A stretch of 12,282 nt of DNA from Candidatus Syntropharchaeum sp. (GTDB lineage Archaea > Halobacteriota > Syntropharchaeia > Alkanophagales > Methanospirareceae): contig JADHYP010000023.1 of the NCBI GenBank assembly GCA_016782355.1, positions 1 through 12,282 of the forward strand. The letters are read 5' to 3'. The notes under the pieces were generated by a model. That model was given only the letters and a program-made list of their open reading frames with translations, did no database searches and was not told the DNA's origin. Within the stretch, counting starts at the first letter, position 1; every line of letters begins with the position of its first letter. A program made the position numbers and the translations under genes. Positions 1,905 to 11,309 of this stretch are shown here, piece by piece.

Positions 1905-2171
1905 TCATTCACCCGAAGTCGCATATATTTCATAAGGCATTATCTTCTTGTTTACCTTCTTCTTCCCTTTCAACTTACTTACGAGGTCGGCGGCTTTCTC
2001 CTTCTTCTCCCTCCTCTTCAACCGCTCCATTATGCCCGCCATCTCTTTCTCCTTTCCCTCACCGCCGTGTTCCTTCTCCTCCTCCTTTACATACCCGCCA
2101 CCTGCATCCTCTTCCACCTCTATTTCCTCTTCTTCCTCTTCCTCCATCCCCTCAAAAACCATTACACTCAC
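1905..2171 (-). CDS. pup: Candidate Pup-like protein modifier ending in Ser-Gly-Glu
   Basis: This 88-residue protein is a candidate archaeal Pup, the small disordered modifier that PafA joins to substrate lysines through its C-terminal Glu. It ends in Ala-Thr-Ser-Gly-Glu, matching the Gly-Gly-Glu/Gln end of known Pups, so no deamidation would be needed. It is nearly all charged: an acidic run at residues 9-21, a Gly/Glu/Lys linker, then a basic predicted helix at about 44-69 and the tail PYEIYATSGE. Bacterial Pup is about 64 residues with an acidic C-terminal helix, so charge layout differs. The start is GTG at 2171: GGGGGTTGA sits 6 bases upstream, whereas the ATG at 2162 would be 15 bases away. 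The gene follows dop by 54 bases, as its last operon partner. Identification rests on context, size, composition and the C-terminus; overall sequence identity to bacterial Pup is not evident. Confidence 0.65.
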   Translation of the reverse strand: MSVMVFEGMEEEEEEEIEVEEDAGGGYVKEEEKEHGGEGKEKEMAGIMERLKRREKKEKAADLVSKLKGKKKVNKKIMPYEIYATSGE

Positions 2172-2177
2172 TTTAAC

Positions 2178-2186
2178 TCAACCCCC
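2178..2186 (-). promoter_or_regulatory. Ribosome binding site that sets the Pup start
   Basis: On the minus strand this is GGGGGTTGA, a near match to GGAGGTGA, 6 bases before the GTG at 2171. It favours that GTG over the ATG three codons later. Confidence 0.5.
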
Positions 2187-2225
2187 TTACACTTTTTTGC
2201 TTCTTTTTCTTGATAAAACTTTCTT

Positions 2226-3839
2226 TTAATAAATTATCTTCTCAGGATATAATCTTTTCGCTGCTGATAAAACTTCCTCTATTTCTCGTCCCTCTATCAT
2301 TTCCGCCCCTATCTCTTCCTTAGTCAGCATAAACGGCTCGTCCAGTATTATTTTCGCTTCGTTAAGCACCATCGTTGACCAGCTAACACTTCTCACGTGC
2401 GACCCATACCTTTTCAACATCTCAACCTTGAAAAATTCCCTCGTTCGCTCAGGTGCATTACTCAATGCGTATTTTACTCTATCTGATAACGAAGACCAAT
2501 CAACCTGCGGCAATTCTTTCTTTGCGAACGCCAGCGACTCCTTCGGATTGCAGAGACAGCTACCTTTCGTACTCTCTTCTCCATCCACAATGCAGTACAG
2601 CACGCTTTCGTCCAGCAATGCATACTGATTACAGATGCTTATTCCCTCAGAAGCGCTTTTTGGCTCATAATTCACGAGCAACGCCAGTTTCGTCACCCAG
2701 TCTATTCCATCCACGTATTCTTCCACTCGCCGGGCTTCCAGCTTCTCTATCACTTCTTTTAAACTTCTCCTGCCCATTTCATCCCACTTTCCTTCTTCTT
2801 CGCCCTTCTCTTCATACATCTTCTCTATTCCCTCGAGATAAAATCGGAGTATGGAAACGGCATCGGTCATCTCCCCGTTCTTCAACTTTATCTTCCACTC
2901 GCATTCCTGTGTATCCGCGGATATTTTCTTGAATGCCCGCACCGGGTCGTCTATCTCCGGCGCATCGTCCAGGAACCCCGATTCAAATGCACAAATTACC
3001 ATCGCTTGTGCAACGTCACGCAAGAAAATCGCGTATTCTGAACGAAGTGCCTCGTAATGTATGTCGTGTAGTCGCCAGTATTGACGTGCCGCATGAGGCT
3101 GGTCTCTCGTGTTCAGGATGCCTCTACCCAATGTAGTGGAAAGCGAAGACTTCTGAACAACGAACATCGCTCTTGGCGAAATAACGAACTTCACTCCCTC
3201 TTTACCAATGGTATCCCCGGAAACGACGTCCCCGGACCCCGTGAACAATATTCTTGTGACAACCCAGGGTATTAACGCTTTTTCTACACGGTTCCAATCC
3301 TTGCACGCTTCCCTTTTTGTTATTATATTCCCATGCGTAGCATAAGTATTCGTCTTTATTTTTTCACCTTTTCCTATGCGTATGCCACTGCCTGCAGCAA
3401 CGCGACTGAAGAAATTGGCGACGTTATTCTTATGAATGACAACTTTTTTCTTTAAAGTCCGGCTCGCCTCCCTCGACCCCGCGAAAGCATATATCTCCGA
3501 TACTTTGTCGTATGCCACGGCATCAAAGGGGTTATTGTAAGAAGGCGTTGCTATTTCAAGATGTCCCATATCGTTATAAATCCGGCAGCCGTTATCGCCA
3601 TACGAAGACGTTATCCTCGATTCATGCGCTTCCTGCGATACTTCGGTAGCTGTGTCCCACTTCACATCCCTTGAAAATCTTCTTCTTTTTAAACCTTGAA
3701 TCGCCGCATTAACGAGCAAAGAAGGATTTAAAGTCGCTTTCGCAGTCACTGGATATTCCTGCTCTATCCCTCTTATCTTATTCTCTGTTCCCGTTCCTGT
3801 TCCTGTTCCTGTTCCTTCTCCCTTCCTCCTCTCGCTCAT
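2226..3839 (-). CDS. dop: Dop-like Pup deamidase/depupylase (PafA/Dop family)
   Basis: The 537-residue protein belongs to the carboxylate-amine ligase-like family of PafA and Dop. Visible in order: metal-site motif GIEQEY (residues 24-29); a Dop-type segment 'AIQGLKRRRFSRDVKWD' (46-62); RIYNDMGHLEIATP (86-99), with the catalytic Asp at 90 and metal ligands Tyr88 and Glu95; HKNNV (136-140); IPWVVTRILFTGSG (190-203); RGILNTRDQPHA (239-250); and the C-terminal 'KRYGSHVRSVSWSTMV' region (476-491), which resembles Dop more than PafA. The loop between residues 62 and 83 is about 20 residues shorter than in mycobacterial Dop. By family it hydrolyses the C-terminal amide of Pup or the Pup-lysine isopeptide bond; since Pup here ends in Glu, depupylation is the likelier job. 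Residues 9-18 are five Gly-Thr repeats before the fold begins. It precedes pup and has its own TATA box. Confidence 0.85.
   Translation of the reverse strand: MSERRKGEGTGTGTGTGTENKIRGIEQEYPVTAKATLNPSLLVNAAIQGLKRRRFSRDVKWDTATEVSQEAHESRITSSYGDNGCRIYNDMGHLEIATPSYNNPFDAVAYDKVSEIYAFAGSREASRTLKKKVVIHKNNVANFFSRVAAGSGIRIGKGEKIKTNTYATHGNIITKREACKDWNRVEKALIPWVVTRILFTGSGDVVSGDTIGKEGVKFVISPRAMFVVQKSSLSTTLGRGILNTRDQPHAARQYWRLHDIHYEALRSEYAIFLRDVAQAMVICAFESGFLDDAPEIDDPVRAFKKISADTQECEWKIKLKNGEMTDAVSILRFYLEGIEKMYEEKGEEEGKWDEMGRRSLKEVIEKLEARRVEEYVDGIDWVTKLALLVNYEPKSASEGISICNQYALLDESVLYCIVDGEESTKGSCLCNPKESLAFAKKELPQVDWSSLSDRVKYALSNAPERTREFFKVEMLKRYGSHVRSVSWSTMVLNEAKIILDEPFMLTKEEIGAEMIEGREIEEVLSAAKRLYPEKIIY
3787..3816. 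repeat. Five tandem hexamers encoding Gly-Thr in the Dop N-terminus
   Basis: Five copies of GTTCC(C/T) run head to tail. On the minus strand they encode Gly-Thr five times, just before the conserved Dop core. Copy-number change would stay in frame and alter only a flexible leader. Confidence 0.8.
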
Positions 3840-3870
3840 TAGCCTTTATCATAAATTCGTGGTTTTATTT

Positions 3871-3880
3871 GTATAAATTT
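3871..3880 (-). promoter_or_regulatory. TATA box for the dop-pup unit
   Basis: On the minus strand this reads AAATTTATAC after an A-rich stretch, about 35 bases before the ATG at 3839. It suggests dop-pup is transcribed apart from arc-pafA, as expected once the VapBC remnant separated them. Confidence 0.4.
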
Positions 3881-3928
3881 TTATTTTCTTATTCTATACC
3901 CTGACAACCAAATTTTGGGGAATGGAAA

Positions 3929-3941
3929 AGTATATATATAC
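3929..3941 (+). promoter_or_regulatory. TATA box for the VapB-like gene
   Basis: AGTATATATATAC lies about 30 bases before the ATG at 3967, and AAGGAG follows at about 3944. The antitoxin promoter appears intact. Confidence 0.45.
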
Positions 3942-3966
3942 AAAAGGAGTATAATATATAACGCAA

Positions 3967-4155
3967 ATGGGTGAGAAGATAAGAGATCGTTTGAAGAGGC
4001 GTGTTTCGCTCGACGATACGTTGGAAAATTTGCTATTACATGCACATAGAAGCAAGCCGAGCGATTTTGCGGGTGCATGGATAATGAACGACGAGGAAGA
4101 AGAAGAAATCAAAGAAAGTCTTAAGAGGTTGTGGGGAACGTGGAAGATGGATTAA
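3967..4155 (+). CDS. vapB: VapB-like antitoxin, partner of a broken VapC
   Basis: A 62-residue charged protein whose C-terminal part, with an EEEEEIKESLKR helix followed by LWGTWK (about residues 43-59), resembles the toxin-binding tail of archaeal VapB antitoxins. The N-terminal 35 residues are basic and helical; no clear AbrB or ribbon-helix-helix motif can be named. The identification depends largely on the next frame: a GTG at 4140 overlaps its end and opens a PIN-domain N-terminus, the usual vapBC overlap. It lies on the plus strand within the otherwise minus-strand pupylation block, between pafA (convergent) and dop (divergent), so it is a likely insertion. A TATA box at 3929-3941 suggests it may still be expressed although the toxin is lost. 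Confidence 0.6.
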   Translation: MGEKIRDRLKRRVSLDDTLENLLLHAHRSKPSDFAGAWIMNDEEEEEIKESLKRLWGTWKMD

Positions 4156-4293
4156 TCGTGGATACGGACGTTTTGGTTGATTTACTACGCAAGAAAGATT
4201 TCGATTGCTCTGGTTAATGGTTTTGGTATTTTGACAAATAATGTAGCACATTTCAATAAGATAAAACATTTACGGGTGCTCAGTGGCAAATGA
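4140..4293 (+). pseudogene. vapC: VapC PIN-domain toxin remnant with internal deletion and frameshift
   Basis: From the GTG at 4140 the frame encodes GLIVDTDVLVDLLRKKD, a typical PIN N-terminus with the first catalytic Asp, then stops at 4215-4217. In the +1 frame from about 4204 to the TGA at 4291-4293 the sequence encodes 'GILTNNVAHFNKIKHLRVL', the typical C-terminus of VapC toxins including the TNN-x-x-HF region. About 80 central residues, with the acidic active-site positions, are missing compared with the usual 130. The gene cannot yield an active nuclease. It is the dead toxin of the VapB-like gene before it. Confidence 0.75.
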
Positions 4294-4362
4294 TACAGAT
4301 TACGGTGGCGGACGATTTCAACTCCATTGTTTTTACTCCCTCACCTCTCCCCAGCACTACAT

Positions 4363-6129
4363 CTACTCCACTTCTTCCTCTTCCTTCCCCCTCTTCTCCT
4401 CTCTTCTTATCTCTTCTATCCTCTCCTTTATACTTCCCTCATCCCATCCATCCAGTTCATCAAATCTATAAGTTTTGTTATTGGAATACAGCAAATAGTC
4501 TAAATACGGATTCCTGACGATTCTGTTTCTTATTTCTCTACTTATCTCCTCCTCCCAGCCCCTTATGTCCCCTTCCTCGGCAAGCAATCGGACGAGAACC
4601 TGTCTTGTTCCTTCCCCTCTTCTACGCTCTCGCAAAAACACCACCACCGCACTTGGCATCCTCGCAAGTTCCGGATACCGCTCAAATAGCCTCGTATATT
4701 CCTCTCCCGTTGGCCTACTCACGTCTATCTTTACCTCCGGCTCCCTGTTTATCGTTATCTTATTCCAGCTCAGCACCGCATTCTCGAATTCTGATGCGAG
4801 TCTTACCCTTAACTCGGCTCTCGAATCATTCGGTGGGAATAATAACGCTTCCCCTACCTCCTCTTCCGTTAGTATTCGCTCCACTCCCATCCTATCCGCT
4901 ACTTGCTCGTATAAGTCATAATCACAGAGATTGGCGAAATCAAACGATGCCGCTATCTCTTTCTCCACACGCTCATCCATCATGTACATGCTCCGGTAAT
5001 CAAACTTCCCCTTTGACGTGTATTCATATTCAAAATCACCTATCTCGTTCTTTATCACCCATAGCTTCATCACCCATTCTAAACGCCGCACCACGTATGG
5101 GTCTTCAAGCAATCCCTGCTCGAACTTGTCACAAAGCCTCTTGAACGTATCCAAAACGTATTTGTCCCAGTAGGACGTCTCTCGTTCCTCAAACAACTCC
5201 TCTATCACCGCGAGATAATGACAATTGAGATAATCAATCGCGGACTGCGTCCTCCCGTTCATTAACTTTATCCGCCAATCACCTTCGGTATTCATCGAAA
5301 TATCTTTGAATGTTTGAAGCGGATTCCAGATGTCCTCTACATGCGAGATATTCCCGGATTCTATCGCATCTATCACATACGATGTAAGAGCATTATTGAG
5401 CAGCCGTGTTACCTCAGAGCGAACACCCTCACCCGACGTAACGTGGACACGATATTTATCCTTTGTACTCAACGGCTCGTCCCGTGTAGATAATATCGGC
5501 CACTGCGAAGGCGACTCCGTGAGAACTCGCTTCGATACCATCGCTTTCGGCGAAATTACATATCTTATCCCTTCTTTTTCCGCTACGAACCCACCAGCGC
5601 CAAAGAATATCTTCCGAAGCACTAAAAACGGTATGAGCAGATTCTCTTTACCCGCAAATTTCTTCCTCTCCACCATGTATGATTCGTGCGTGCCCCGGCT
5701 ATACCTCTTGTCTATCTCCACGTTTGCTTTCCAGCATTGGATGCGTGCAGGGCTACTCCCTCTTTTCCTCAACTTCTCCCTGTATCTTTCATTTGCTTTC
5801 TCCACGCCTATTTGCATGTACAATTCCGCCGCCTTATCATATTTCAGCACCTCGAAGGCGTTTCTGCATTCCGGCGTGGCTATCTCTAAGTGACCTCCGG
5901 TGCAGATGTAAATCCGGGAGCCATTTCTCAAAAAACCGTCGTTCCTCCTCCGCAACTTCGAGCATATCGCATCCGTCCCATCAAAAAAAGTATAATTCTC
6001 AAGCGCATGAATCACCTCATCTACGTGATAAAATCTCGCATACCTGTACAAGCCCGGCGATTCTGAACTTATGCCCACTCTAAATTCGTGCTCTAACCCC
6101 TGCCATTTGTTCAAATCCTCCCGCGCCAT
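4363..6129 (-). CDS. pafA: PafA-like Pup ligase homologue with altered active site
   Basis: The first 475 or so of 588 residues align by eye with the Pup ligase PafA: GLEHEF (11-16), a short N-terminal loop, FLRNGSRIYICTGGHLEIAT (66-85), KANVEID (134-140), THESYM (147-152), LLIPFLVLRKIFFGAGG (164-180), STRDEPL (214-220), VIDAIESG (252-259), LEWVMKLWVI (350-359) and the C-terminal ILTEEEVGEAL segment (419-429). Metal ligands Glu13/15, Tyr74 and Glu82 are kept. The family's catalytic Asp is Cys76 here, and the conserved NTRDEPH motif has become STRDEPL. About 110 residues follow the normal end, closing in a Glu-rich tail. PafA uses ATP to activate Pup's C-terminal Glu and joins it to substrate lysines; whether this protein does so, uses another nucleophile, or is a regulatory pseudoenzyme is open. 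It follows arc by 6 bases. Confidence 0.8.
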   Translation of the reverse strand: MAREDLNKWQGLEHEFRVGISSESPGLYRYARFYHVDEVIHALENYTFFDGTDAICSKLRRRNDGFLRNGSRIYICTGGHLEIATPECRNAFEVLKYDKAAELYMQIGVEKANERYREKLRKRGSSPARIQCWKANVEIDKRYSRGTHESYMVERKKFAGKENLLIPFLVLRKIFFGAGGFVAEKEGIRYVISPKAMVSKRVLTESPSQWPILSTRDEPLSTKDKYRVHVTSGEGVRSEVTRLLNNALTSYVIDAIESGNISHVEDIWNPLQTFKDISMNTEGDWRIKLMNGRTQSAIDYLNCHYLAVIEELFEERETSYWDKYVLDTFKRLCDKFEQGLLEDPYVVRRLEWVMKLWVIKNEIGDFEYEYTSKGKFDYRSMYMMDERVEKEIAASFDFANLCDYDLYEQVADRMGVERILTEEEVGEALLFPPNDSRAELRVRLASEFENAVLSWNKITINREPEVKIDVSRPTGEEYTRLFERYPELARMPSAVVVFLRERRRGEGTRQVLVRLLAEEGDIRGWEEEISREIRNRIVRNPYLDYLLYSNNKTYRFDELDGWDEGSIKERIEEIRREEKRGKEEEEVE

Positions 6130-6135
6130 TTTATT

Positions 6136-7770
6136 TTAAAAATGCATTCCCGTTTCTTCTTCCGGCATTCCCTCATACCCGGATGCTAATATCTCTTCCG
6201 CTCTTCTCTGCACAAACTTGTCAAAGCCCTCTTTCAGGTGTCCCATGTTCACTCCTATATCCTCTATGCGTTTATACTTCTTCTGCAAATCATTCGTCTT
6301 GCTTCCAGCATCTAATATCACTTCAATTCCTTCAGCATCCCACATTCTCTTCATGTCCTCGTTGCTGATTGCTCCTTTTTTCAACATCAGCAACGTCCTC
6401 TCCTCCAATGCCTTATCCCTCGCATAGTGGAATATCTGCGCTATGAACCGCCCGGTTATCGTATCCGCCCTCCTTATTCGCCCTATTTCTGTCTCAACGT
6501 AATTATCACTGTACATATAGCCGACCATCTCCCTCACCAGATACGACCTCGCCTCTTCTTCTCCGCCCTTTTCCTTTATCAGGCAGCGGTCAATGGGAAT
6601 CTTTTTAACATATAAGCTCGCAATGGAATATGCAGCTTCCTTATCAGGTGCGGGAACCTCAATTATCTTGTCAAATCTCGCCCGGAATGCGGAATCTATA
6701 AGATACAACCTGTTCGTCGCTCCTATCACCGTAAGGTGTGGATGCAGAGCATGGAAACCCTCCAGCAGGTCCAGTAGTTGCCCGGTAACTCGCTCCGGCG
6801 CTCCCGAGGAACCCGTGTACATGCCCCTTTCCTGTGCTAACGCATCTATCTCGTCAAAGAAGATTACACCATAGTCGTTTTCCCCTTCCTCTAATTTAGC
6901 GTTCGCAGCCTTGAACACCATTCGCACGTTCTTCTCCGATTCGCCAAGCCACATGCTGAAAAGCTCTCCTGCTCCTACCTTCACAAATTCACAATTCGGT
7001 AATGCGGATGCCAACGCTTTTGCACACATCGTTTTCCCGCAGCCCGGCGCACCATACAGAAGTATCCTTCTCGAACCTTCTCCATATTTCGTGTAATCGT
7101 CAGGATTTATCATCGGAAGAATAATGCTCTTTATTAATTCCTGCTTTACCTCTTTCAAGCCTCCAATGTCATTAAAACTCACCTCGGGGCTCTTCGTGAC
7201 TTCATATCTGGAGAATTCCTTTGTCTTGTAACTCTTCTTTATGTCAAACGTGCCGGGGAGAAGCCCTACCTTCATCCCCTCTTTTACCATTTCCTTCTCT
7301 TCTTCTCTTAGCTTTTTATATAATCTACCACGTCCTTTTCCCGTGGATATTTCAGCTATCCATCCATCTTCATCGTCGTCCTTCCTCAACTCCTCTACCT
7401 CTCCCACTTCTAAATCCACCATCCGGTCATATACCTTCGTGATGCCTATGGTAAATCCACTTGGGTTATTCCTATCAGGGATGCGCCCTATGAAGACATA
7501 TTTCCCTTCTTGTAGCTCACCTATTTCTTCCGCAGTAAGCGTTCCGTATGGCAAAGCCTTTAACGCACCATTCAAATTCACGATTGCACCCTCTTCGGTC
7601 TTTTCCACTACGAACCCACAGTCTAAAGGCGGTGACCTCGCTTTTGACACAAGTTTCTCCAAATCCGCTTTATACGCTTCTGTCTCCTCGTATTTCCTCC
7701 TCAACCGCCTGTAGTCACTCTCTAACCGTTCATATTCGTATCTTGGGATATAGTCCACCCTTTCTTCCAT
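6136..7770 (-). CDS. arc: ARC/Mpa-type proteasomal AAA ATPase
   Basis: The 544-residue protein has the ARC/Mpa layout. An N-terminal coiled coil (about 10-45), the Pup-docking part in mycobacteria, is followed by two small beta domains consistent with tandem OB folds (about 50-190) and one AAA module: DIGGL (201-205), Walker A GAPGCGKT (240-247), pore loop with Trp-Leu-Gly (274-276), Walker B IFFDEID (303-309), sensor GATNR (350-354) and arginine finger region FRARFD (362-367). The stretch YMYSDNYVETEIGRI followed by DTITGRFIAQI (about 418-446) matches ARC rather than PAN, and PAN has only one OB fold. ARC rings unfold pupylated proteins and thread them into the 20S core. The end is Gly-Met-His-Phe instead of the usual HbYX such as QYL. 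The ATG has GAGGGG upstream and a TATA box at 7807-7816; it leads the module. Confidence 0.88.
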   Translation of the reverse strand: MEERVDYIPRYEYERLESDYRRLRRKYEETEAYKADLEKLVSKARSPPLDCGFVVEKTEEGAIVNLNGALKALPYGTLTAEEIGELQEGKYVFIGRIPDRNNPSGFTIGITKVYDRMVDLEVGEVEELRKDDDEDGWIAEISTGKGRGRLYKKLREEEKEMVKEGMKVGLLPGTFDIKKSYKTKEFSRYEVTKSPEVSFNDIGGLKEVKQELIKSIILPMINPDDYTKYGEGSRRILLYGAPGCGKTMCAKALASALPNCEFVKVGAGELFSMWLGESEKNVRMVFKAANAKLEEGENDYGVIFFDEIDALAQERGMYTGSSGAPERVTGQLLDLLEGFHALHPHLTVIGATNRLYLIDSAFRARFDKIIEVPAPDKEAAYSIASLYVKKIPIDRCLIKEKGGEEEARSYLVREMVGYMYSDNYVETEIGRIRRADTITGRFIAQIFHYARDKALEERTLLMLKKGAISNEDMKRMWDAEGIEVILDAGSKTNDLQKKYKRIEDIGVNMGHLKEGFDKFVQRRAEEILASGYEGMPEEETGMHF

Positions 7771-7806
7771 GTTTAATCCCCTCTTACAATATAAGAGTAA
7801 ATTGAT

Positions 7807-7816
7807 TTTATAAAAA
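7807..7816 (-). promoter_or_regulatory. TATA box for arc-pafA
   Basis: On the minus strand TTTTATAAAA lies about 37-46 bases before the arc ATG at 7770, leaving a short leader that includes GAGGGG. It is back to back with the promoter of the AbrB-PhoU gene. Confidence 0.5.
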
Positions 7817-7835
7817 TGCGATGCCTCGCTCTTGT

Positions 7836-7847
7836 TTTTATATAATT
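7836..7847 (+). promoter_or_regulatory. TATA box for the AbrB-PhoU / SRP54 pair
   Basis: TTTTATATAATT on the plus strand would start transcription near 7870, giving a leader of about 120 bases that contains the whole second copy of the 96-bp repeat. Confidence 0.4.
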
Positions 7848-7886
7848 ATATTTACAATATATAGTTAAATAAATGATGAGGGGAAA

Positions 7887-7982
7887 GTATTTGTTTACCG
7901 CCGAGAGCACGGAGAGCGCTGAGAGGAGATAAATGATTTCCCCGACTCTCTGTGTTCTCTGCGGACTCAGCGGTAAACAAGT
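7887..7982. repeat. 96-bp dispersed palindromic repeat, copy 2
   Basis: Second copy of the element at 756-851, in the same orientation, about 90% identical by eye with no gaps; most differences fall in the central spacer. It ends 10 bases before the AbrB-PhoU start and so lies in the probable 5' leader, where its terminal inverted repeats could fold and affect translation. Confidence 0.85.
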
Positions 7983-7992
7983 GCGATGAGAA

Positions 7993-9054
7993 ATGATGAA
8001 AGAGGAGAAAAGAAAAATACAGCTCACAGGCGGTTCAACTCTCACTATATCGCTTCCTATAAAATGGGCGAGAGAAACGGGTTTGAAGCAAGGAGATGAG
8101 CTCTCTTTAATCCAACGCAGTGATAACTCGCTCGTCATAACACCGGAGAAGAAGGAAAAGGAGCAGATAAAATCCGCGGAGTTCGAGTTCTCGGAGGAAG
8201 AGAGCTTTGAAGACAACTTCCGGTATCTTATCGCTTATTACCTCGTTGGGTATGACCTCGTAAAGCTTTTATCGCCAAACGGTTTCGGGGCTGAAGAAAG
8301 GAAGAGGATAAAGGAGGTGGTGAGGAAGAGGCTGATAGGCATGGAGGTCGTTGGAGAGTCGTCAAGGGAAATAGTACTCCAGAGCTTTTTAAAATACGAG
8401 GATTTTACACTGCGAGATGCGGTACGGAGCATGTCAGAAATAATATTGTCAATGCACGCGGATGCGATTTCTTCGCTCGATGAACGTGACGCGAACCTTG
8501 CGGAGGACGTTATAGAGCGTGATAACGAGATAGACCGATTTTATTTGCTTATTGTAAGGCAGCTCAAGGCTGCGATGAGCGATCCCGACCTTGCAAAGAA
8601 GATAGGCGTGGGCAGGCAGCGCGATAGCCTGGGATACCGGATAGTAGTGAAGTGCATGGAGAGGATAGGCGACCATGTAGAGAATATAGCGAAGAATTCC
8701 ATGATGATAAATTCAAAAAGCTCTATCTCGGAACCTGCATCCTTAGGAGTTAAAAGCTTAGAAGGCATAAAAGAAATCGGCTTCCGTGCCGAAAAACTCT
8801 TCACCAAGACTCTGGCTTCATTATCGAATATGGGTATGAAAGAGGCGAATGAAGCGATAAGGGATGCAAATGCGCTGATAGATAAGTTAGAGGGAATAAA
8901 TGAGCGAGTTCTGGTAGAAGAGCTGAGTATTACGGATAAAATTCACATTCTTTCTATCCTGGAGAGTTTGGGAAGAATAGCGAAGTATTGCACGGATATA
9001 GCAGAGGTAACGATAAATATGGGGACGAGAATAGCGGGAGAATTGGAGTTTTAA
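7993..9054 (+). CDS. AbrB-PhoU fusion protein, phosphate-uptake regulator type
   Basis: The 353-residue protein has an N-terminal SpoVT/AbrB-like swapped-hairpin DNA-binding domain (about residues 8-51; TGGSTLTISLPIKWARETGL with GDEL following) joined to a PhoU-like helical bundle (about 75-350). The bundle has the acidic metal-binding pattern ERDNEID (about 175-181) and MERIGDHVENIAK (222-234), both classic PhoU features, and a second ILESLGRIAKYCTDIAE repeat near the C-terminus. This fusion is a common archaeal family thought to regulate phosphate uptake; no pst genes are in the window. Two adjacent ATGs (7993 and 7996) are possible starts, and no strong Shine-Dalgarno motif is seen. It ends 3 bases before SRP54, so the two are cotranscribed. 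Confidence 0.88.
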   Translation: MMKEEKRKIQLTGGSTLTISLPIKWARETGLKQGDELSLIQRSDNSLVITPEKKEKEQIKSAEFEFSEEESFEDNFRYLIAYYLVGYDLVKLLSPNGFGAEERKRIKEVVRKRLIGMEVVGESSREIVLQSFLKYEDFTLRDAVRSMSEIILSMHADAISSLDERDANLAEDVIERDNEIDRFYLLIVRQLKAAMSDPDLAKKIGVGRQRDSLGYRIVVKCMERIGDHVENIAKNSMMINSKSSISEPASLGVKSLEGIKEIGFRAEKLFTKTLASLSNMGMKEANEAIRDANALIDKLEGINERVLVEELSITDKIHILSILESLGRIAKYCTDIAEVTINMGTRIAGELEF

Positions 9055-10435: not shown

Positions 10436-10549
10436 TTACAAACCATGTCTTTTAGCAACTCTTTCCTTAAGCTCGTCACCAAGCTTTAAGGCTATTTCAT
10501 CCGTGAGCCTGCTTTTTCTCGCTTGATATGAAAAAAGGAGAAGTGCCCT
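10436..10549 (-). pseudogene. C-terminal remnant of a second antitoxin gene
   Basis: On the minus strand one frame down to the TAA at 10436-10438 encodes about 37 residues (RALLLFSYQ, then SRLTDEIALKLGDELKE, then RVAKRHGL). This parallels the C-terminus of the intact antitoxin at 11016-11279 (KLLLSVFN, SKLSDEDCLRLGREVNE, ELAKRYSLVK). It has no start of its own and runs into the end of the PIN toxin at 10548, in another frame. It is best read as the tail of a paralogous antitoxin left after a deletion or recombination between toxin-antitoxin cassettes. Confidence 0.7.
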
Positions 10550-11000
10550 ATGGTCTGGTCCTGGATAAAAATGAAATCAGTTCGGAGGTTGAGAATACTT
10601 TTATCGCGTATTTCTCTAACTTTTTCAATCTCTTCTCATTAGACCAAAGCCCAATCTCATGCCCATTACTCTTAAAGGATAGAGATAGAGCAACGTATGG
10701 AACGTCTTTCAAATGTGGTGATAATATCTTCTCCGCTATTGACACGAATCTCTCAAATGAATCTCTGGGAACAATTTTTATAAACAATGGCAAGGAGGAG
10801 AACATTATATCAAAATCCTGTGGGAAGAGGTGGAACTTAGAACAAATCTCCTCCTTATGCTTTCCAACTTCTTCTAACACATATTTCGGAGCGAATAAGT
10901 CCAAATCATATTCTAATTCAGTGTCTAAAATTAACTCTCTTGTCGTACTGTCTTTTTTGAAAAAGGAGAAGAGGATATTAGCATCAACGACTAATTTCAT
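10548..11000 (-). CDS. PIN-domain toxin, VapC-like
   Basis: A 150-residue PIN-domain protein, probably the ribonuclease toxin of a type II pair. It opens with MKLVVDANILFSFF, carrying catalytic Asp6; acidic Glu43/44 lie in YVLEEVGKH, a third acidic position is Asp99 in KDVPYVALSLSF, and WSNEKRLKKL (119-128) replaces the last conserved Asp with Asn121. VapC-type PIN enzymes cleave tRNA or rRNA when freed from the antitoxin. The gene begins 15 bases after the antitoxin stop, the usual antitoxin-first order. Its C-terminus runs into the remnant of another antitoxin, so the last few residues may not be ancestral. The target is not predictable. Confidence 0.8.
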   Translation of the reverse strand: MKLVVDANILFSFFKKDSTTRELILDTELEYDLDLFAPKYVLEEVGKHKEEICSKFHLFPQDFDIMFSSLPLFIKIVPRDSFERFVSIAEKILSPHLKDVPYVALSLSFKSNGHEIGLWSNEKRLKKLEKYAIKVFSTSELISFLSRTRP

Positions 11001-11015
11001 TCTTAGACGCAGCCC

Positions 11016-11279
11016 TTATTTGACAAGACTATATCTCTTCGCCAATTCCTCGTTTACTTCCCTACCTAACCTCAAGCAATCTTCATCAGATAGCTTGCTG
11101 TTCTCCGTCATTCTATTAAATACTGACAGCAGCAATTTCCTGAATGCCTTTGACTTCTCTAACTTCAACTCAGCCAATCTCTCTTCTATTGCCTCTAAAG
11201 CGAACTTAGACTTATCCGCAGCCAATTCTTCTATTTCCTTCTCCAATTTCTCCGGTATCTTAACAACTAACTCCGCCAT
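11016..11279 (-). CDS. Antitoxin of the PIN toxin, VapB-like
   Basis: An 87-residue protein starting MAELVVKIPEKLEKEIEEL, like a short beta strand and helix of a ribbon-helix-helix DNA-binding antitoxin; SKFALEAIEERLAELK (about 25-40) would complete the fold, and the C-terminal 45 residues would wrap the toxin. I chose the ATG at 11279 over the GTG at 11288 because that GTG lies within GGTGGTG, which serves as the ribosome binding site just before the ATG. A TATA box lies at 11310-11320. It lies directly upstream of the PIN toxin and would be autoregulated as such antitoxins commonly are. Its C-terminus is repeated, degraded, at 10436-10549. Confidence 0.78.
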   Translation of the reverse strand: MAELVVKIPEKLEKEIEELAADKSKFALEAIEERLAELKLEKSKAFRKLLLSVFNRMTENSKLSDEDCLRLGREVNEELAKRYSLVK

Positions 11280-11309
11280 TTCCACCACCTATAACCCTAT
11301 TAAGCATAC

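Follow-up and report, generated by a model that had tools for sequence, protein, structure and literature searches.

The window is the whole stretch of DNA that was analysed, 12,282 nucleotides from a contig assigned to Candidatus Syntropharchaeum sp. Within positions 1905–7770, four minus-strand ORFs were confirmed, for an ATPase, a PafA-like enzyme, a Dop-like enzyme and a small charged protein:

6136..7770, minus strand: ARC/Mpa-like AAA ATPase (544 aa; Pfam AAA, E 8.5e-34)
4363..6129, minus strand: PafA-like Pup_ligase-fold enzyme (588 aa; Pfam Pup_ligase; GxExE motif)
3840..4362, no strand: gap separating the two ligase-fold genes (523 bp; outside the module)
2226..3839, minus strand: Dop-like Pup_ligase-fold enzyme (537 aa; Pfam Pup_ligase; GIEQEY motif)
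1905..2171, minus strand: Pup-like tag (88 aa; C-terminus NKKIMPYEIYATSGE)

The gap contained a weak VapB-like ORF on the plus strand (3967–4155), which is no module member; the same gap was shorter than 200 bp in 42 of the 48 cases measured. The adjacency of the four genes, claimed in the preliminary description, recurred elsewhere. The order ARC>Paf>Dop was present in 47 of the 54 loci at which an ARC or Dop gene of this module occurred, which is more than chance; loci that carry nothing but a PafA-like paralogue (six) or a tag gene (ten) fall outside this count. The tag gene followed in 34 of the 47 loci (one with Dop in two frames), the order Dop>Pup was found in 39 of the 54 cluster loci, and seven of the 54 held a partial set only. 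In genome G273, the Dop-like enzyme was the only one of the pair recovered; ARC stood immediately ahead of its gene.

Profile searches of archaea covered two phyla, that of the window and that of Bathyarchaeota, and the search of genome_contigs relied on two narrow peptide patterns. PF03136 matches were obtained in 52 of the 392 genomes of the window's phylum, all inside its order (52 of 53 genomes). Outside Bathyarchaeota, 50 loci carried names; Methanophagales or ANME-1 was the label for 27 of them and Alkanophagales for two, and one locus lay on a 1.19-Mb contig. The contig was taken as archaeal because the enzymes recur throughout the order and at loci with these labels. The recurrence rules out contamination or a chimera. 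Pupylation is otherwise described from bacteria in the available text of PMC2588565 and PMC3511204, and the assembly behind the window, in 105 contigs, reaches 61% completeness; even so, a bacterial or chimeric contig has a negligible chance, given the recurrence, the 1.19-Mb contig, and the SRP54 and PhoU genes that the window's contig also carries. These genes, described earlier as MazE/AbrB-PhoU and SRP54 neighbours, were recovered by Pfam as such, and the archaeal host proposed with them held. The four-gene Pup-like set is conserved across ANME-1 and Alkanophagales. The ANME-1 are methane-oxidising archaea of marine sediments. Among viral_contigs, 18 pattern matches for PafA-like relatives were obtained and none was confirmed. 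Dop-like relatives appeared in two plasmid records, both actinobacterial, and in one phage record of doubtful label.

Both enzymes matched Pup_ligase (PF03136) with E values of 2.6e-60 and 6.3e-66 (223.6 and 205.1 bits; cut-off 25), and their solved-structure matches were Dop and PafA chains only. Unrelated carboxylate-amine ligases were thereby ruled out, as no such ligase was matched, and the claim of two different proteins of the PafA/Dop fold was upheld. PafA/Dop active-site motifs were common to both. The family models set higher bars: the PafA-like enzyme scored 168.5 bits with TIGR03686 (PafA; cut-off 551.3, Nonomuraea control 760.6), and the Dop-like enzyme scored 192.8 bits with TIGR03688 (Dop; cut-off 492.3, Nonomuraea control 786.1), both below the cut-off.

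The PafA-like enzyme has Cys76 where the catalytic Asp of PafA/Dop (YxD motif) is expected, a position read from sequence alignment alone because the structural model of this enzyme (mean pLDDT 46.9) was set aside. Cys replaced Asp in all 53 informative PafA-like ORFs; 55 ORFs were counted, one without coverage of the site and one aligned elsewhere. Leu replaced the His of RDEPH. The Dop-like enzyme has Asp90 at the catalytic place and the DxxH spacing of Dop, and the Asp was kept in 50 of 50 informative ORFs (3 of 53 were without coverage of the site). Trp61-Asp62 lies ahead of the catalytic strand, and Trp-Asp was present in 49 of the 53 Dop-like ORFs. The Dop-loop is described in the available text of PMC8599861 as 40–65 residues with a conserved Trp, absent from PafA, and as Trp47 followed by DFEEE. 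The Trp-Asp stretch here is shorter than the Dop-loop, and the corresponding stretch of the PafA-like enzyme is similar in length.

In the enzyme tree, the archaeal pair formed a clan of its own, separate from the bacterial PafA and Dop rows. A single clade of archaeal Dop-like and bacterial Dop was rejected (p-AU 5.6e-8), a provisional result given long branches and seven bacterial rows. These rows, three Dop and four PafA, were taken from a single actinobacterium, from a gut record whose Dop part had been excised from a fused reading frame, and from portions of two chains in the PDB; the tree leaves out planctomycete, verrucomicrobial and nitrospiral systems. The enzyme names are not transferable by orthology because the archaeal pair forms a separate clan, and PafA-like and Dop-like denote resemblance to PafA and Dop, not demonstrated one-to-one orthology.

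This clan, together with an Asp found only in the Dop-like enzyme and a Cys throughout the PafA-like ORFs, would also suit swapped or shared roles, in which ligation, or both reactions, would fall to the Dop-like enzyme, and the Cys enzyme would act as a thiol-type deconjugase, as a regulator or as a partner without catalytic activity. We regard such an exchange as unlikely, since the Dop-like enzyme scored higher with the Dop model than with the PafA model (147.9 bits), shows Dop-like DxxH spacing, and carries Trp-Asp where the Dop loop has Trp47-DFEEE (available text of PMC8599861).

Pup_ligase-fold enzymes were also found in eleven Bathyarchaeota genomes, with the pair adjacent in nine, and this pair grouped with the ANME-1 pair in the tree. 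The catalytic site of their PafA-like enzyme was Asp in five and His in two of seven aligned rows. In these eleven genomes, neither fetched stretches nor profiles found ARC (two positive-control genomes) or Pup (a search without positive control).

The Pup-like tag has an acidic N-terminal half and a basic middle and ends YEIYATSGE. All 49 copies read ended in G[E/Q], the Pup signature according to the available text of PMC2588565. Over the last 40 codons, differences at codon positions 1, 2 and 3, summed over all pairs of the 49 genes, were 3638, 3134 and 18424; the ORF is under purifying selection for its protein. The tag was found in 48 of the 53 genomes of the order. Of those without it, G219 lacked the enzymes, G307 held enzyme fragments only, and G312, G209 and G174 have contigs that break off within the Dop gene or some 90 bases past its end. 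The two Alkanophagales, and some ANME-1, kept the tag gene, though on another contig. Besides the tag genes of the Dop>Pup loci, ten lay on contig stretches without the enzymes. PF05639 and TIGR03687 gave no match for the archaeal tags searched (four with Pfam, three with NCBIfam), and two bacterial-type Pups matched both models. The likeness of the small protein to Pup lies in its size, charge, gene position and C-terminus: the small charged protein ending in Ser-Gly-Glu was as first described, but no sequence model recognised it as Pup. A IMPYEIYATSGE remnant on lysine via an isopeptide bond would have a computed added mass of 1354.6115 Da.

The tag and the Bathyarchaeota genomes bear on a further explanation, namely carboxylate-amine ligase activity of the two enzymes towards a substrate that is not a protein tag, with no connection to the small SGE protein. 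Eleven Bathyarchaeota genomes with such enzymes and no tag or ARC detected would fit it. It is nevertheless quite improbable: tag and enzymes occur together in 48 of 53 genomes, even unlinked, the tag C-terminus is all but invariant, ARC>Paf>Dop are adjacent, and the Bathyarchaeota tag search had no positive control.

The ATPase has a predicted coiled coil at about residues 10–43 and two predicted beta (OB-like) domains at about 50–117 and 121–181, followed by the AAA domain. Its motifs are Walker A YGAPGCGKT, Walker B IFFDEID, pore loop MWLG and C-terminus TGMHF; TGMH[FYL] ended 47 of 48 sequences, and the Nonomuraea ARC ends TGQYL. The span from the PPL motif to Walker A was about 193 residues, compared to about 121 in the PAN of L146 and 179 in Nonomuraea ARC. 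The score with TIGR03689 (ARC/Mpa) was 150.6 bits, below the cut-off of 504.75 (control 839.3), and the PAN model scored higher (167.9; NCBIfam). Profile comparison of the N-terminal part gave weak and mixed similarity, both for bacterial ARC and for PAN. The 24 best PDB matches of the structural model (mean pLDDT 69.2) were mycobacterial Mpa, with TM-scores of only 0.26–0.33 (Foldseek). In the tree, the ATPase formed its own clade (100/100), excluded from PAN (100/100) and Cdc48 D1 (100/99), which rules out nesting within either. Placement as sister of PAN (p-AU 0.126) or of bacterial ARC (0.364) was not rejected. The predicted layout fits an ARC-type assignment, as do the separate clade and the Mpa matches, but the TM-scores are low, the N-terminal profiles weak, and the family cut-off was missed.

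No 20S gene was found in the window (Pfam). The genome search for psmA/psmB and PAN proposed earlier gave a divided result: archaeal 20S alpha and beta subunits are present, but PAN over the cut-off was not found in this 61% complete genome. Across the order, 20S subunit matches were obtained in 52 of 53 genomes and PAN over the cut-off in 45 of 53. The module probably serves the 20S. The alternative that it conjugates and unfolds without feeding the 20S has a minor chance; in that case the ATPase would extract or remodel tagged proteins, and the 20S would rely on PAN and Cdc48. The window without a 20S gene, the frequency of PAN and the TGMHF end, which is not the hydrophobic-Tyr-X motif, would agree with it, whereas 20S genes occur in nearly every genome and TGMH[FYL] is as conserved as expected of a docking tail. 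The available text of PMC3511204 points both ways, describing bacteria that have the pathway without proteasome genes and ATPases of proteasome-less bacteria that lack the interaction motif.

Based on the observed genes, their conservation, linkage, fold families and motifs, and the 20S genes of the same genome, we interpret the four genes as an archaeal module for attaching and removing a Pup-type tag that includes an ATPase of its own, with a probability of about 0.77. Module function without the 20S and swapped enzyme roles are variants inside this core claim. The complete pupylation module claimed for an archaeon stood in its four parts, linkage and fold, but not in orthology, the PafA Asp or a Pup model match. 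Conjugation, the assignment of ligase and depupylase, tag recognition, docking and degradation would proceed as follows. With ATP, the PafA-like enzyme would activate the C-terminal glutamate of the SGE-ending tag and join it to lysines of target proteins, and the Dop-like enzyme, with its canonical Asp, would take the tag off. The N-terminal coiled coil of the ARC-like ring may bind tagged proteins, which would be unfolded and handed to the archaeal 20S, docked via TGMH[FYL]. For this whole chain, including enzyme roles and 20S degradation, the odds are about even.

A more speculative proposal, which we consider rather improbable, is that archaea have a branch of pupylation that evolved separately: an archaeal Pup_ligase duplicated independently to give the pair, one member became a Cys enzyme that binds its tag as a covalent thioester and then transfers it to lysine, and the ANME-1 20S is served by PAN and a Pup-type tag in parallel. 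If true, the thioester step would be chemistry converging on ubiquitin E1/E2 enzymes. The invariant Asp-to-Cys change also bears on the debate over whether that residue is base or nucleophile.

The available texts list only bacterial lineages for Pup (PMC2588565) and call pupylation a unique bacterial pathway (PMC12053664). If the function of the module matches its appearance, archaea too have a route, known from bacteria, by which proteins are marked for degradation, and its presence throughout ANME-1 and in Alkanophagales would give this domain a further type of protein tag. The archaeal sequences would let the origin of pupylation be tested. One theory holds that bacterial proteasomes were acquired by transfer from archaea or eukaryotes (available text of PMC3511204); with an archaeal set of ARC, Pup and PafA/Dop, arrival of the tag alongside transferred proteasomes becomes testable.

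The module resembles the actinobacterial Pup-proteasome system in its four gene kinds (ARC/Mpa, Dop, Pup and PafA), with both enzymes of Pup_ligase fold, a small charged tag with a Gly-Glu/Gln end encoded beside the Dop-like gene, a coiled coil and two beta domains (predicted here) before the AAA core, and 20S genes in the genome. It differs in its order ARC>Paf>Dop>Pup, its archaeal hosts, a tag that Pup models do not match, a PafA-like enzyme with Cys in place of the catalytic Asp, an enzyme pair in a separate clan, a window without a 20S gene, and PAN in most genomes of the order. The Bathyarchaeotal pair shares the two Pup_ligase-fold genes and groups with that of ANME-1, but a Pup-like or ARC-like gene was not detected there and its PafA-like enzyme has Asp or His, not Cys, in the seven aligned rows.

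PAN is likewise an AAA ring ATPase with an N-terminal coiled coil and OB domain, whereas the window ATPase forms a separate clade with another C-terminus and a longer PPL-to-Walker A span, and PAN itself is additionally present in 45 of 53 genomes. SAMPs are ubiquitin-fold proteins that are activated by an E1-like enzyme and joined to lysines. This SAMP ubiquitin-like conjugation is named for archaea in the available text of PMC3511204. The proposed function of the window module is similar in that a small protein would be joined to lysines in archaea, but its enzymes are of the PafA/Dop fold, in contrast to the E1-like enzyme of SAMP.

The putative pupylation module of the window consisted of four adjacent genes on the minus strand:

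7770-6136, minus strand: AAA ATPase (ARC/Mpa-like), 544 aa, first in transcription order
6129-4363, minus strand: Pup_ligase-fold protein (PafA-like), 588 aa, second; Pfam Pup_ligase 2.6e-60
3839-2226, minus strand: Pup_ligase-fold protein (Dop-like), 537 aa, third; Pfam Pup_ligase 6.3e-66
2171-1905, minus strand: small tag protein (Pup-like), 88 aa, last in transcription order

The preliminary description had recognized two different PafA/Dop-fold proteins, and both matched the Pfam family. Among NCBIfam models, the 537-aa protein scored higher with Dop (192.8 bits) than with PafA (147.9), both below cut-off, and the 588-aa protein scored about equally with PafA (168.5 bits) and Dop (165.4), reaching neither cut-off. 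For the 544-aa ATPase, the PAN model gave 167.9 bits and the Pup-system ATPase model 150.6, each falling far short of its cut-off. Nothing over cut-off was obtained for the tag protein in family-model searches (Pfam, NCBIfam). The 523-bp gap separating the two ligase-fold genes contained a weak VapB-antitoxin-like ORF (3967-4155, plus strand) that stayed below the Pfam cut-off (E 0.043) and may be left over from a toxin-antitoxin insertion. A PIN_2-domain protein (10548-11288, minus strand) and the small ORF upstream of it were possibly a toxin-antitoxin pair.

The PF03136 (Pup_ligase) profile was searched in 392 genomes drawn from the window's phylum. Matches came from 52 genomes: 50 belonged to the family of the window and the other 2 to another family of its order. 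None of the 339 genomes outside that order had a match, and one genome of the window's family, G219, was without it. This recurrence in 52 of the 53 genomes of the order upheld the archaeal origin of the contig. A Dop-like alignment scan of named genome contigs gave 53 loci, 3 from Bathyarchaeota and 50 others. The latter were titled Methanophagales or ANME-1 (27), Alkanophagales (2), Methanoxibalbensis (1), Methanosarcinales only (13), Methanomicrobia or Methanomicrobiales (4), and archaeon, Halobacteria or Nitrosotalea (3); the broad or odd titles were taken as loose labels. One copy was on a contig of 1,187,124 bases.

From each genome with a hit, one or two loci were fetched; those carrying ARC or Dop genes numbered 54, the window included. 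The order ARC, PafA-like, Dop-like, tag was found in 34 of them (one with Dop split over two frames), the first three genes without an adjoining tag gene in 13, and a partial module in 7, several at contig ends. In genome G273, the Dop-like gene was the only ligase-fold gene found, with ARC immediately before it. The tag profile detected a tag gene in 48 of the 53 genomes of the order. Among the five missing, G219 was without the enzymes, G307 had enzyme fragments, and the contigs of G312, G209 and G174 broke off before the end of the Dop gene or some 90 bases beyond it. In both Alkanophagales and several ANME-1 genomes, the tag gene and the enzymes were on separate contigs. Each of the 49 tag genes read had G as its second-last residue, with E (48) or Q (1) after it, the exact C-terminal IMPYEIYATSGE was present in 45 of 49, and third codon positions held most changes. 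On one contig (L034, G229:C191), two Dop-Pup copies with equal scores lay in opposite orientation near either contig end, perhaps an assembly effect.

Outside the order, PF03136 was found in 9 of 398 Bathyarchaeota genomes and, through loci, in two more. The ligase-fold pair was adjacent in 9 of these 11 genomes (loci L185-L195). A search of the 11 genomes for ARC-like genes came back negative (best 155 bits, AAA core only; more than 1120 bits in two positive-control genomes), as did a tag search run without a positive control. A record from human faeces labelled 'UNVERIFIED: Bacteriophage sp.' (L163; MT835496.1, 36153-49481) carried plus-strand frames for an ARC-Dop fusion (4282-7347), a Pup ending GGQ (7376-7567) and PafA (7572-8975); it is perhaps a bacterial scaffold, not a phage.

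A PafA/Dop tree, proposed earlier as a check, was built with 47 rows, seven of them bacterial. Bacterial PafA and Dop fell into a single clan, separate from that of the archaeal enzymes (100/100). Among the archaeal rows, the Dop-like ones of ANME-1 and Bathyarchaeota grouped (100/99), as did the PafA-like ones (100/99). A common Dop grouping was rejected: forcing all Dop-like rows together was 66 log-likelihood units worse (p-AU 5.6e-8). Therefore, these sequences favour separate PafA/Dop duplications in Bacteria and Archaea, a provisional reading because of the long branches and only seven bacterial rows. It is in tension with the Dop-type motifs of the archaeal Dop-like enzyme.

In the predicted model of the ATPase (mean pLDDT 69.2), the AAA core was preceded by a coiled coil and a pair of beta domains, but the N-terminal profiles showed weak similarity to both bacterial ARC and PAN. 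In Foldseek, matches 1-24 were Mpa chains, with Rpt subunits lower; TM-scores were low (0.26-0.33), which we think reflects poor domain placement in the model. Cdc48-type AAA domains ranked best in a sequence search of the PDB. In a 30-row AAA tree, the window-type ATPase formed its own clade, ruling out a position within PAN or Cdc48; joining with bacterial ARC (p 0.364) or PAN (0.126) was not rejected.

Proteasome subunits matched in 52 of 53 genomes of the order, and PAN exceeded its cut-off in 45. The window's own genome (1.0 Mb, 61% complete) had 20S subunits, with beta exceeding the archaeal beta cut-off and alpha above the NF003075 but below the TIGR03633 cut-off in the stretch searched; no PAN was over cut-off there.

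A literature search, with most subscription papers and all preprints outside it, found no paper on ANME-1 with pupylation, and archaeal pupylation was named in none among the matches listed. A word search of the main text of two large ANME papers (PMC9012536, PMC9894754) gave no hits for terms relating to the proteasome, ubiquitin or pupylation. An earlier report elsewhere, e.g., in subscription papers or preprints, is possible.

Beyond gene content, conservation and motifs, we infer the function of the module by analogy with bacteria. The C-terminal Glu of the tag would be joined to lysine in an ATP-dependent manner, the Dop-like enzyme would undo this joining, and ARC would recognize tagged proteins, which the 20S would then degrade. 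Mycobacterial Mpa brings in pupylated proteins through its N-terminal coiled coils (PMC9599533). Since the tag ends in Glu, deamidation would be unneeded, except for the one Gln copy (cf. PMC12288473).

In alignment with bacterial PafA and Dop, the GxExE motif was kept in the archaeal enzymes of the order. Reviews (PMC3511204, PMC12288473) describe the catalytic aspartate as common to PafA and Dop and as base or nucleophile; this place holds Asp in structure 4b0t and Asn in 4bjr (PafA entry with Pup). The Dop-like enzyme had Asp there in 50 of 50 informative ORFs (53 ORFs, 3 without coverage). The PafA-like enzyme had Cys in 53 of 53, from 55 ORFs after excluding one without coverage and one truncated ORF with a pattern match elsewhere; four of these 53 are copies of an additional, unlinked paralogue. 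This paralogue, whole or partial in six ANME-1 genomes (L085, L086, L087, L088, L089, L090), kept Cys in all four copies covering the place and lacked the RDEP motif in three complete copies. In the PafA-like enzyme, RDEPL replaces RDEPH.

Compared with the known systems, the CxxxH spacing of the archaeal PafA-like enzyme equals that of PafA, and the DxxH spacing of the Dop-like enzyme equals that of Dop. The ATPase C-terminus was TGMH[FYL] in 47 of 48 sequences; that of the bacterial Nonomuraea ARC is TGQYL.
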